The notes: generated from the letters alone by a model not told the origin. DNA of 64,000 nt from Alphaproteobacteria bacterium (GCA_020446675.1 JAGREE010000009.1:1-64000), one strand, 5' to 3'; numbered from the stretch's first letter, positions 45,311 to 49,625 are shown. Made by a program: numbers and translations.

Positions 45311-47440
45311 TTACCCAACATCTGCCGGTGGCTCGCTAAAATCTGCCCATAATTTATAGCCATCTTTATTTTCCAAATAATTCATAAGGGCAATGACAGG
45401 GCGACGATCATAAATCCTGTCCGCATCATTCATAAGAATCTGTACAGCTTTTTTCATGTCCATTCCCTGACGATGGGCACGGGCGCTGATCATGCCAACA
45501 AAGGCGTTGGCAACCGATACAATTCTTGCTGAAAGCAGTATATCTTCTCCCGAAAGGCCTAACGGCTGACCACTGCCATCCCAATGTGCCTGAATTTGCC
45601 TGAGCGTTTCAGCAACCGGACCTTCAAATTCAATATCCTGAACCAAATCAGCGCTCTTTAACATACTTGAACGGATTGTGATCAGCTCTTCCCTAGTTAA
45701 ATTTGTTGGCTTGGTCAGGATTTCTCTTGGCACAAGGATTTTACCCAAATTCATCATAGCCCCTGCGAGCTCTGCCGTCGCAGATATTGTCTCATCAACC
45801 TTCAATTCCTTTGATAATACTTTAGTGACGGCAACAACACGTTGCGAATGAGCGGCACTATAAGGGTCACGGCTGGCAATAATCATTGTAAGAGTAGAAA
45901 CCAGGCTTTTTAAGCCTAGCTCCCTTTTCAATCTGTTTTGTTCAATTTCTGTAATATCATCCTTAATGATCAGGACACCTTTTTCCTGATGCACTTTTCC
46001 ATCGCTTATCAGCATAGGAATGTAACTCGCCTTAACAGTCTTAGGATGATCTTTGGTGCCAACATTCCTAATTTCCGTAACAATTTTATTGTCGGCCAGA
46101 ACTTTTTCACAATGAACTTCATCAATACGGACTTTAGCCCGCCCCAAAACAGCGGATGGCTGTTTTCCAACCATATCTTCCGGTCGTGATTTAGCCCCCA
46201 TCGCTGCTTTTAAATTTACAAAAGTGTAAGTACCATTTTCGCCAACAGCTGTAATTTCGCTGGGCTGGCTGTTGGTAACAATGCTCATAAATTCGCTTAG
46301 ATTTTCGTATTTTCTTAATAATGCTTTCTGTTTTCTGAGTGCCTTCTCCAAACGCACCGATATGCTATGACGCCATACAAGAACAAGGATGGCTGCAAAG
46401 CTGATAATGACCAGAAAGGAAATAATCAGAATATTTCTTTTTCTTACAACTGTATCTGATAGTGCTTCTGACCGATCTATTGTCCTGACCAGCATCCAGT
46501 TTGTTCCATCAATCATTTTGCCTGAAACAAGAACCCTTTCTCCTGAAGAATTCATCATTACACCCATTCTCCCAGGATTCTCATAAGCATATTCCGCTGC
46601 AAGTGAAGGGGTACCAACTGATAGAGGGGGCTGAAAATCTGAATCCGTTTCCCTGATATTCTGAATATAGTGAATCATGCCGTCTTTTTTTACGATCAGA
46701 TAATTTTTTGCTGTCAGAGCACTTTCCCCTGGCTGTTTTAACAGTTCAAAAAACTCGTTACCCAATAATCTCATAGCGATCACAAAACCAAGTGCGCGGC
46801 TATTCTTATCTCTATCTATTGCAAAAATTGGGGCGATAATTGCCACTGTCGGCAATCCGTTTTCACCCATAAAAGGGCCAATAAAATGCGTATCCTGAAT
46901 TGCGTCTTCAGAAATATATGCCTTAACTGCATCTGGAAACTCTGGCATCAATAAAGTTGAAGCCAAGATCTGGCCTTGCGTATCCGCAAGGGCAATGCCA
47001 GCATCATGGCGTGTTTCAATATTTGCCTTAATTTGGAAACCTGCATCATTCTGATTTGAAATATATCCATATTCCAAAGCCCGGTCCGATAATAAAGGAA
47101 GTAGATATTCTTTCATAGCTTCCGTCGCTGAACCATCAAGCCCCATATCAATATTCAAATTTGTGAAATATAATTGTACCGAGCTATTTTGAGAAATCTG
47201 GCCAATTACTGCTTTTTGTTTATTAATCCATTTGGATAAAACGTCACTACGACCATTGAGAACAAGTGAAAGTCGGCTCTGCCATACGAGGTTCTCCCGC
47301 TCTTCTTCTGATTTGGAAAATTGCCAGGCTGATATCATAGACACGATTGCCGCAATCATCAGTATGATGACAATGATGAGAGTTCTATTTTTTAATTCTT
47401 TCCCCATCCTATTATTCATTGGTAACGCCTTATCCATCAA
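45311..47440 (-). CDS. Membrane sensor with Cache-like, PAS and degenerate HD-GYP domains
   Basis: A 709-residue protein: membrane helix 19-39, extracytoplasmic Cache-like sensor (about 40-335), second helix (about 337-356), coiled coil, PAS-like domain (about 382-500), then an HD-GYP fold (about 510-690). In active HD-GYP phosphodiesterases the motifs are HDxGK and HHExxDGxGYP. Here they are Met563-Asn564-LGK and IQAHWDGSGQP (616-626), so the HD pair, the HHE metal ligands and the GYP tyrosine are lost, although HSQRV (His531) remains. It is probably a cyclic-di-GMP binder or signalling scaffold rather than an enzyme. It is divergent from the LapG-like protease gene, with an 87-base gap. Confidence 0.82.
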   Translation of the reverse strand: MMDKALPMNNRMGKELKNRTLIIVIILMIAAIVSMISAWQFSKSEEERENLVWQSRLSLVLNGRSDVLSKWINKQKAVIGQISQNSSVQLYFTNLNIDMGLDGSATEAMKEYLLPLLSDRALEYGYISNQNDAGFQIKANIETRHDAGIALADTQGQILASTLLMPEFPDAVKAYISEDAIQDTHFIGPFMGENGLPTVAIIAPIFAIDRDKNSRALGFVIAMRLLGNEFFELLKQPGESALTAKNYLIVKKDGMIHYIQNIRETDSDFQPPLSVGTPSLAAEYAYENPGRMGVMMNSSGERVLVSGKMIDGTNWMLVRTIDRSEALSDTVVRKRNILIISFLVIISFAAILVLVWRHSISVRLEKALRKQKALLRKYENLSEFMSIVTNSQPSEITAVGENGTYTFVNLKAAMGAKSRPEDMVGKQPSAVLGRAKVRIDEVHCEKVLADNKIVTEIRNVGTKDHPKTVKASYIPMLISDGKVHQEKGVLIIKDDITEIEQNRLKRELGLKSLVSTLTMIIASRDPYSAAHSQRVVAVTKVLSKELKVDETISATAELAGAMMNLGKILVPREILTKPTNLTREELITIRSSMLKSADLVQDIEFEGPVAETLRQIQAHWDGSGQPLGLSGEDILLSARIVSVANAFVGMISARAHRQGMDMKKAVQILMNDADRIYDRRPVIALMNYLENKDGYKLWADFSEPPADVG

Positions 47441-47527
47441 ATCTTTCTCATTATTAACCGATAGGTAACCATAACTTATGTATATTTCTTTAATATTTTA
47501 CTGATTAAGGCCAATTGAAGAAAATAA

Positions 47528-48193
47528 ATGCATAAATTAATAAAAAAATCTCTGATATTTCTTATTCTGCTCTGCTTAGGCCATTCAAATACATATGCAG
47601 AAGCCAGGAACGGGCTTTTTGGGTCTACCGAATTTAAATCCACCGAACTGAGTGCTTTTAAAAAATGGGCCGACCAAAGAATTCGTTATAATAATGAGTT
47701 ACGCCATTCTTCAAGAGCGCCTTCTAAAATGGGTCAAAACTGCCGCAGAACGAAAGCCTTTAAATGTGTAGATCAGGCATGGCAGGACATGATAAATTCG
47801 CTTAAAGGCCAACCAGAAAAAGTTACGCTGGAAACAGTCAATAAATATATGAACGAGTCTTCTTATATAACTGACATGGTCAACTGGCATCAGGAAGACT
47901 ATTGGGCAACAATCAATCAGTTTCTGGGTAAAGATGGTGATTGTGAGGATTATGCTATTGCCAAATATTATTCCTTAAAAGAGCTGGGGTTCAAAGTGGA
48001 TCAAATGCGCATCGTTATTGTACACGACAATAACCTAAATATTGCGCACGCTATTTTAGCCGTCTATCTTAAAGATAAAATTTGGATTCTAGATAATCAG
48101 GTTTCACATATCATCAGCTCTGATCAGGTCGTCCATTACCGGCCACTTTATTCTATTAATGAAAATGCCTGGTGGCTTCATAAAATTACTTAA
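47528..48193 (+). CDS. LapG-like periplasmic cysteine protease (bacterial transglutaminase-like family)
   Basis: A 221-residue protein with an N-terminal signal peptide (about 1-24, ending NTYAEA). The transglutaminase-like core has Cys139 in GDCEDYAIAKY, His174 in NIAHAIL and Asp189 in WILDNQ, the triad of LapG proteases; the neighbouring Asp138 and Glu140 match the DCE calcium site. LapG cleaves giant surface adhesins and is held in check by a cyclic-di-GMP receptor. The two flanking genes encode degenerate cyclic-di-GMP domains. No adhesin of LapA type or canonical LapD is in the window. Confidence 0.85.
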   Translation: MHKLIKKSLIFLILLCLGHSNTYAEARNGLFGSTEFKSTELSAFKKWADQRIRYNNELRHSSRAPSKMGQNCRRTKAFKCVDQAWQDMINSLKGQPEKVTLETVNKYMNESSYITDMVNWHQEDYWATINQFLGKDGDCEDYAIAKYYSLKELGFKVDQMRIVIVHDNNLNIAHAILAVYLKDKIWILDNQVSHIISSDQVVHYRPLYSINENAWWLHKIT

Positions 48194-48272
48194 GCAAACA
48201 ATAAAATTTTAACCAATTGGTATTATATTGATTAGCGGGTGAATAACAAATTGAACGAGTTTAAATTATAAG

Positions 48273-49625
48273 ATGCAAGCAACTAAAAAAGATCCGTATT
48301 CAGAAAGTTCTGCGCCACCCTCACAGATAGAAGAACTTTATCAGCATATTAGAACTTTTCGACGGTTCCCTAACGGATATCGCGCTATTCATATGCATTT
48401 TTCTATTCTTGACAGACTGCATCAACAGCCACATCACCGTCGAGCCATTGCTACTGCATTTAATAAGCTGGTAAATTCATATGAAGGAAAATTATTCTGG
48501 ACACAAAATTTCGATTTTTTCTTTGTTTGCAAAGGCTGTCCAACATCACGAATTGAAGCAGCAAAATTTGATGCAATCCGGGCCGTCAATGATTCGCCGG
48601 TTTTGAAGCAAATTATTGACAACAGCAAGGATGACGAACTTTGCGACTGGTATGACCTATCAACAGAGTACGAGAAGTTTTATGATTTTGTTGAAAAACT
48701 TCGCAGAGGAATTAATGAGGGCAATGCGGAAAATGAAAGCCAGGCTCCTAATTTACGCACCCTTATTGCATCGCTTGATCAGGATAATACGCCGGTAAAA
48801 AATAAAAATCCTCAGACTAAAGTGGAAAAAAAGGAACAAAAGACAGTTCCTAGTTATGAGCACTTATTTCAAAAATCTATTACCCCGCCTATTGGACCAA
48901 TCCAGCTTGATAAACTGGAACGTAACGTTTTGAATATGGATATGTACTCTTTAATTGATGAGCAGAATATCTGTGTTGTGGTCGATAAAATGGCCCCTCA
49001 GATTGTTTTTACAAAGAAGTATATTTCTCTTGATGAAGTAAACGACTCTATACTGCCTGGATATAATATTTCAGGTGACAAATGGCTTTTTCAACGTCTG
49101 ACAGAAACATTTGATCTAAAACTGATGCAGGCCCTTATTGATTATAAAAGCTTTCCTGAGACTGTGCTCTCAATCAATATGAATGTATCTACTATTTCAA
49201 CAAAAGAATTTGATAAATTTATTGCTAAGCAAAAATCCTTGTCGGATCATCCCCTGGTTCTGGAGATAACTTTATTTGATATCATGTCGGACTTGACCGC
49301 TTATTATAAAGCTCAGGAAAAAATAAATCGGTTAGGCTGTAAAATATGCATTTGCAAAATGGATGTTCAGTCACTTTATGTTCTTAACCGCGAACTTATT
49401 AATGTCGATTTTCTGAAAATTCGCTGGAAAAAGAATTATCTAAACGCCCTTAGTCATACGGATATAGACAGAATAAAAGAAGCTGTTAAAACTCAGGGTA
49501 AGATGCGTGTTGTGCTTTCCGATTGCGATTCAGAAGAGGCTATTAAATTCGGAAATGAACTGGGTATTGTTATGTATCAGGGATTTGAAATTGATAGGCT
49601 ACAGAAACTGGCGAAACCGTCGTAA
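48273..49625 (+). CDS. Cytosolic protein with degenerate EAL domain
   Basis: A 450-residue protein without membrane helices. An N-terminal alpha/beta domain (about 15-145) is unfamiliar (AIHMHFSILDRL, FWTQNFDFFFVCKG). A charged linker (150-205) leads to an EAL-like fold (about 210-445). Recognisable but altered motifs: LSINMNVS for the conserved Asn strand, LEITLF for EITE, CKMD (361-364) for DDFG, KIRWKK for KID, LSDCDS (415-420) for AEGVE, and YQGF retained. The key metal and catalytic acids are gone, so phosphodiesterase activity is unlikely. It is next to the LapG-like protease gene on the same strand (79-base gap). Confidence 0.78.
   Translation: MQATKKDPYSESSAPPSQIEELYQHIRTFRRFPNGYRAIHMHFSILDRLHQQPHHRRAIATAFNKLVNSYEGKLFWTQNFDFFFVCKGCPTSRIEAAKFDAIRAVNDSPVLKQIIDNSKDDELCDWYDLSTEYEKFYDFVEKLRRGINEGNAENESQAPNLRTLIASLDQDNTPVKNKNPQTKVEKKEQKTVPSYEHLFQKSITPPIGPIQLDKLERNVLNMDMYSLIDEQNICVVVDKMAPQIVFTKKYISLDEVNDSILPGYNISGDKWLFQRLTETFDLKLMQALIDYKSFPETVLSINMNVSTISTKEFDKFIAKQKSLSDHPLVLEITLFDIMSDLTAYYKAQEKINRLGCKICICKMDVQSLYVLNRELINVDFLKIRWKKNYLNALSHTDIDRIKEAVKTQGKMRVVLSDCDSEEAIKFGNELGIVMYQGFEIDRLQKLAKPS

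Follow-up and report, generated by a model that had tools for sequence, protein, structure and literature searches.

Related receptor and protease systems

In Desulfovibrio vulgaris, as reported in PMC13090378, DvhD is a c-di-GMP receptor that replaces LapD and governs the LapG-type protease DvhG. According to that report DvhD binds c-di-GMP with a Kd of about 99 nM and has no phosphodiesterase activity; its degenerate HD-GYP domain binds the nucleotide and signals to a periplasmic dCache domain. Two further systems bear comparison, LapD-LapG-LapA of Pseudomonas fluorescens and Caulobacter HvyA, an alphaproteobacterial periplasmic BTLCP protein that requires its catalytic triad (PMC4241560).

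The locus described here lies in a 64,000-nucleotide stretch of DNA (the window) that is part of contig C15 in the draft genome (3.16 Mb) of a marine-type alphaproteobacterium. Its nearest relatives are Emcibacteraceae, one of which, a metagenome-assembled genome (L146), has the identical gene order; we infer the genus-level placement and took G008 as a relative of the same genus. As in DvhD-DvhG (PMC13090378), a dCache-PAS-degenerate HD-GYP receptor stands beside a LapG-type protease that has both the triad and the calcium site. The window differs from that system in its cluster, which carries neither an adhesin nor a type I secretion gene, in the divergent orientation of its genes and in an extra pseudo-GGDEF-EAL gene. 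With the P. fluorescens system it shares a LapG-type protease and, presumably, inside-out control by c-di-GMP, whereas no LapD_MoxY_N domain, HAMP-GGDEF-EAL membrane receptor or LapA retention module was found in the window's genome. DvhD-DvhG is reported to have been reconstituted in a P. fluorescens strain lacking lapD and lapG. The HvyA gene, in contrast, belongs to a capsule export locus; HvyA is restricted to G1 cells, and the available part of PMC4241560 describes no paired sensor. We read the sensor and protease of the window as a DvhDG-type pair of receptor and protease, a kind already known that is met here in a new lineage. The main text of PMC13090378 does not mention Alphaproteobacteria; the class-level distribution of DvhDG may already cover them.

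Three conserved neighbouring genes

An earlier note on this DNA had reported a sensor, a protease and a cytosolic EAL-type protein as neighbours. All three genes are real: the ORFs are full-length, open and conserved. The sensor ORF starts with TTG, with ATG codons in frame downstream. Housekeeping genes flank the sensor and protease pair.

45311..47440, minus strand: probable DvhD-type membrane receptor, 709 aa, TM1-dCache-TM2-PAS-degenerate HD-GYP (Pfam, PDB profile match, AlphaFold2/Foldseek, co-occurrence with LapG)
47327..47383, minus strand: predicted transmembrane segment 1, sensor residues 20-38 (hydropathy)
46436..47323, minus strand: periplasmic dCache domain, residues about 40-335 (dCache_1, E=0.0023; fold match to 9rc2)
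46376..46432, minus strand: predicted transmembrane segment 2, sensor residues 337-355 (hydropathy)
45947..46270, minus strand: PAS domain, sensor residues 391-498 (PAS_4; alignment to the DvhD PAS domain in 9rc0)
45404..45892, minus strand: degenerate HD-GYP domain, residues 517-679 (HD_5; metal site gone, most nucleotide-contact positions retained)
47528..48193, plus strand: LapG-like BTLCP (C93) protease, 221 aa, with signal peptide (Peptidase_C93, triad, calcium residues)
47939..47947, plus strand: D138-C139-E140, calcium site with the catalytic cysteine (unchanged in all 41 aligned homologues)
48273..49625, plus strand: degenerate cytosolic GGDEF-EAL protein of 450 aa with an uncertain role in the circuit (Pfam EAL, AlphaFold2, Foldseek, VIA, residue loss)
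48324..48722, plus strand: GGDEF-like fold lacking the GGDEF motif, residues about 18-150 (AlphaFold2 model, Foldseek, VIA)
48882..49610, plus strand: EAL-like domain, residues about 204-446 (Pfam EAL, VIA, residue check)

The sensor resembles DvhD in all three domains

Pfam searches matched HD_5 (E=1.4e-33) and, more weakly, PAS_4 and dCache_1 on the sensor, in agreement with its earlier description as a Cache/PAS sensor with a degenerate HD-GYP domain. The HD position is occupied by M563-N564 (MN, compared with SQ in DvhD), the HH pair is replaced by I616-Q617, and GYP reads GQP. Replacement of the metal ligands is family-wide: of the 55 sensors taken from named loci, not one retains HDxGK intact.

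A profile built from 30 sensor orthologues matched the PAS/HD-GYP structure of DvhD (9rc0) with E=1.4e-65, the next HD-GYP protein scoring 3.5e-38; the single sensor protein matched 9rc0 with E=2.3e-31 over 303 residues. The AlphaFold2 model of the sensor (mean pLDDT 82.7) gave DvhD (9rc0, 9rbz) as the best Foldseek match of its PAS/HD-GYP region, and the c-di-GMP-bound HD-GYP domain of DvhD was also among the structures matched. For the periplasmic domain, the DvhD dCache structure 9rc2 ranked best among the matches listed (TM-score 0.72 on the target); it was found by fold only, as the dCache sequence alone gave no match in the PDB. A domain tree separated DvhD and 68 sensors from six canonical HD-GYP domains with support of 100/98, which we take as a supporting result only, because the branches are long and the canonical rows few. 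By sequence, and by predicted fold in all three domains, the closest solved relative of the sensor among the matches listed is DvhD.

Nine of the 12 positions that contact c-di-GMP in DvhD are identical or similar in the sensor, several of these residues being common to canonical HD-GYP domains as well. The kept contacts (DvhD to sensor) are K520 to R524, Y523 to Y527, P567 to P571, L577 to L581, M646 to M650, R650 to R654, Y652 to H656, R653 to R657 and E668 to D672, and the three changed ones R569 to E573, K582 to L586 and Y621 to Q625. R524, L581, R654 and R657 are near-invariant contact positions of the sensor. By analogy with DvhD, the sensor is probably a membrane receptor for c-di-GMP. 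The residual HD-GYP similarity, which extends to a response-regulator phosphodiesterase model, would also fit a sensor that hydrolyses c-di-GMP or is some unrelated signalling enzyme, in either case uncoupled from the adjacent protease gene. We regard this as scarcely credible, given the loss of metal ligands throughout the sensor family and its tight co-occurrence and adjacency with LapG.

A version of the sensor lacking the PAS domain and retaining the Cache-like region, the transmembrane segment and the degenerate HD-GYP domain is found beside LapG at L192:2249-3826 and L205:5298-6881.

The only C93 protease of the genome is LapG-like

The protease matched Peptidase_C93 with E=2e-17. The LapG equivalog model NF045674 matched it with E=1.4e-30, but at 106 bits against a cut-off of 320, and LapG-like is therefore the right name. 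It also aligns with both LapG-type PDB entries, 4fgo and 4u65, which we take to be Legionella and Pseudomonas LapG. The triad C139-H174-D189 and the calcium residues D138 and E140 are intact, as had been claimed for this protein, and all are invariant or near-invariant among 41 homologues. A hydrophobic N-terminal segment forms a plain signal peptide, whereas D. vulgaris DvhG is described as having a transmembrane anchor (PMC13090378).

No other C93 protein is encoded in the genome. The absence of LapD, previously stated for the window, holds genome-wide: the best match to LapD_MoxY_N had E=0.24 and none exceeded the cut-off.

Sensor and protease occur together and are predicted to form an inside-out switch

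The earlier note had asked for the conservation of the gene neighbourhood in relatives. Among 100 relatives, the arrangement of the trio is kept across several families. Genomes of at least 90% completeness carried both sensor and LapG in 44 cases, the sensor only in one, LapG only in five and neither in 32 (Fisher p=2e-16; p=5e-7 after removal of a family lacking both; shared ancestry inflates these values). A LapG profile fetched 80 named loci; in 51 of them the sensor gene is next to LapG, divergently in 47 and on the same strand in four. Most pair-bearing loci are alphaproteobacterial, with Emcibacteraceae, Kordiimonas, Dongia, Roseospirillum and Oceanibacterium among the lineages represented; the few beta- and gammaproteobacterial cases include Sulfuricella, Thiobaca and Thiorhodococcus.

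We consider it likely that the sensor and the LapG-like protease form an inside-out switch of the DvhD-DvhG type. At high c-di-GMP, the sensor's inactive HD-GYP dimer would bind the nucleotide, the helices leading towards the PAS domain and the membrane would shift, and the periplasmic dCache domain would then keep the protease inactive. A drop in c-di-GMP would free the protease to cleave its target, a protein secreted or displayed at the surface, close to the periplasmic end, so that both this protein and the cell would come away from the surface. The present analysis shows how the genes are ordered and which domains they encode, that the three sensor domains match DvhD in fold, that the metal site is lost and most contact residues kept, that the protease residues are intact and that the two genes co-occur tightly; nucleotide binding, control of the protease and its direction are presumed to follow the Desulfovibrio work. 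The LapG-like protease probably cuts a surface protein loose. The earlier suggestion of an alternative inside-out control thus stands in that a membrane sensor other than LapD probably confers c-di-GMP control, but such control had already been described for DvhD.

HD-GYP-based LapD-like receptors have been characterised in Desulfovibrio, and the same pair is now seen in many alphaproteobacterial lineages, which offers a testable reason for the possible absence of LapD from alphaproteobacteria that have a LapG-type protease. The relatives with the pair include cultivable hosts (Emcibacter, Kordiimonas gwangyangensis, Oceanibacterium hippocampi), and about 68 aligned sensor domains can be used to map the dCache-LapG interface, a point left open in the Desulfovibrio study.

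Some relatives (G003, G012, G045) keep LapG without the sensor. G012, whose genome is complete and belongs to the same genus, has lost the sensor but retains both LapG and the EAL-like gene (L050); control of the protease there must therefore differ or be absent. Sulfuricella sp. T08 (L209) has two LapG-sensor pairs flanking two other genes. Micavibrio-like loci (L187, L204, L211, L212, L214, L216, L217, L220, L221) encode a longer LapG-like protein of 309-388 aa, usually preceded by a minus-strand gene of roughly 490-580 aa, and no sensor was detected at them.

The third protein has a tandem GGDEF-EAL fold and an uncertain place in the circuit

The third protein had been called a cytosolic protein with a degenerate EAL domain. 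Its EAL domain is indeed degenerate, but it is not an EAL domain alone. Pfam EAL barely exceeded its cut-off (31.4 against 31.3 bits, profile positions 68-233), and the AlphaFold2 model (pLDDT 81.6) shows a tandem GGDEF-EAL fold from which both motifs are gone. Foldseek matched both domains to 5xgb, 5m3c and 6pwk with E about 1e-11, and VIA gave Z about 17 to GGDEF-EAL modules, LapD entries 3pjt and 6pwk (Z 17.9 each) being tied with others. The EAL domains of LapD and FimX are among its best structural matches, and all EAL domains score alike. Its fold is like that of the LapD and FimX GGDEF-EAL modules, but the third protein has no membrane part or S-helix and has lost most catalytic and several binding residues. 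The glutamate and arginine of the EAL motif, the DD pair and the EGVE glutamate are missing; of the residues usual in EAL domains, only N302, E331, K382 and Q436 are kept.

The earlier note had proposed that the role of LapD is split between the sensor, as its periplasmic and membrane part, and this protein, as a docking c-di-GMP receptor that controls LapG. The tandem fold, with LapD among the closest solved relatives (tied with others), would suit such a receptor, and so would the gene's position directly after LapG in Dongia and in the majority of Emcibacteraceae and Kordiimonadaceae loci, including loci with other flanks (L055, L068, L075, L076). However, the sensor alone has the DvhD architecture and no separate EAL receptor is therefore needed; a split in the role of LapD is not supported, because one DvhD-type protein already combines the periplasmic domain with a predicted nucleotide-binding domain. 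The loss of the EAL glutamate, DD and EGVE residues also argues against a divided LapD, as does the distribution of the gene. It is absent from 32 of the 51 LapG-sensor pair loci (it is present in 24 of the 80 named loci) and persists without LapG and sensor in at least seven relatives (L226-L232): at L226, L228-L230 and L232 it lies near ankyrin-SCO1-YkgJ genes with neither LapG nor sensor beside it, and L227 and L231 lack both too. In the genomes at least 90% complete, the EAL-like gene and LapG were both found in 45, the EAL-like gene only in eight and LapG only in four, an association that is weak (p=0.07) once a family lacking both is taken out. With a DvhD-type receptor domain already present within the sensor, we judge the divided LapD to be quite unlikely.

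In the favoured arrangement, a DvhD-type switch made of sensor and protease, the pseudo-GGDEF-EAL protein could still be a true third component that feeds in a second signal. We hold this to be possible, if doubtful, because the gene persists in relatives without LapG or sensor. If true, the alphaproteobacterial switch would have two degenerate c-di-GMP-type modules, one in the membrane receptor and the other free in the cytosol.

Secretion genes and the possible substrate

The earlier note had found no LapA-type adhesin in the window; genome-wide, the LapA retention module NF033682 had no match here or in the other pair-carrying genomes. A weak partial match was found in G012, which lacks the sensor. 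Within the cluster of the pair there is no adhesin with retention domain and [TAP]AAG site, and there are no type I secretion genes; RTX proteins and type I secretion systems are encoded elsewhere in the genome, away from the pair. The search for TAAG/PAAG-type substrates proposed earlier was carried out for two RTX proteins of this genome, neither of which has a [TAP]AAG site.

At some related loci, secretion genes border LapG. In Oceanibacterium hippocampi (L189), TolC, ABC and HlyD genes come after the sensor-LapG pair, as does a second C93 gene; ABC and HlyD genes adjoin the pair at L213, likewise an alphaproteobacterial locus; and at L181, where the sensor was not detected, LapG adjoins a tandem-ABC transporter and HlyD. 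These neighbours favour a target that is secreted or on the surface, in line with Desulfovibrio. At L205, the gene next to the PAS-less sensor and LapG encodes an autotransporter with PATR repeats, a possible non-type-I substrate.

Another reading of the output, which leaves the pairing of sensor and protease untouched, is that the protease acts on a non-adhesin target, for example in capsule or envelope control, and that the sensor regulates that process. HvyA provides the precedent, since it blocks capsulation and needs its catalytic residues, as described in PMC4241560; the lack of a retention module in the window's genome and the behaviour of its tandem-ABC adhesin system, which does not track LapG (below), point the same way. 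Against this, the type of partner and the fold correspond to those of the adhesin system in Desulfovibrio, and secretion genes border the pair at L189 and L213, with the autotransporter at L205. We rate a non-adhesin target as rather unlikely and favour a surface or secreted protein.

The window's genome has a tandem-ABC type I secretion system on contig C127 and a cadherin/RTX adhesin on contig C38. We rejected these as the substrate system of the protease: the N-terminus of the adhesin has neither a retention module nor a conserved AAG site, and the transporter does not track LapG (both in 23 genomes, the secretion system only in eight and LapG only in 25, in genomes outside family f6).

In L189 the two C93 genes flank the type I secretion set. 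The cadherin/RTX giants (L129-L141, C38:2751-3359) are divergent from the tandem-ABC and HlyD transporter and share the N-terminal signature DTxTRxNIHxGG, with no LapA retention module; the signature may be a signal for secretion or retention that has not been described before. The RTX proteins L127:9145-15702 (C84) and L128:8737-11076 (C133) carry an N-terminal lipobox-like stretch, LAACGGDG. The latter lies next to a type I secretion ATPase of the LssB type and could be a type I substrate with a lipid anchor.
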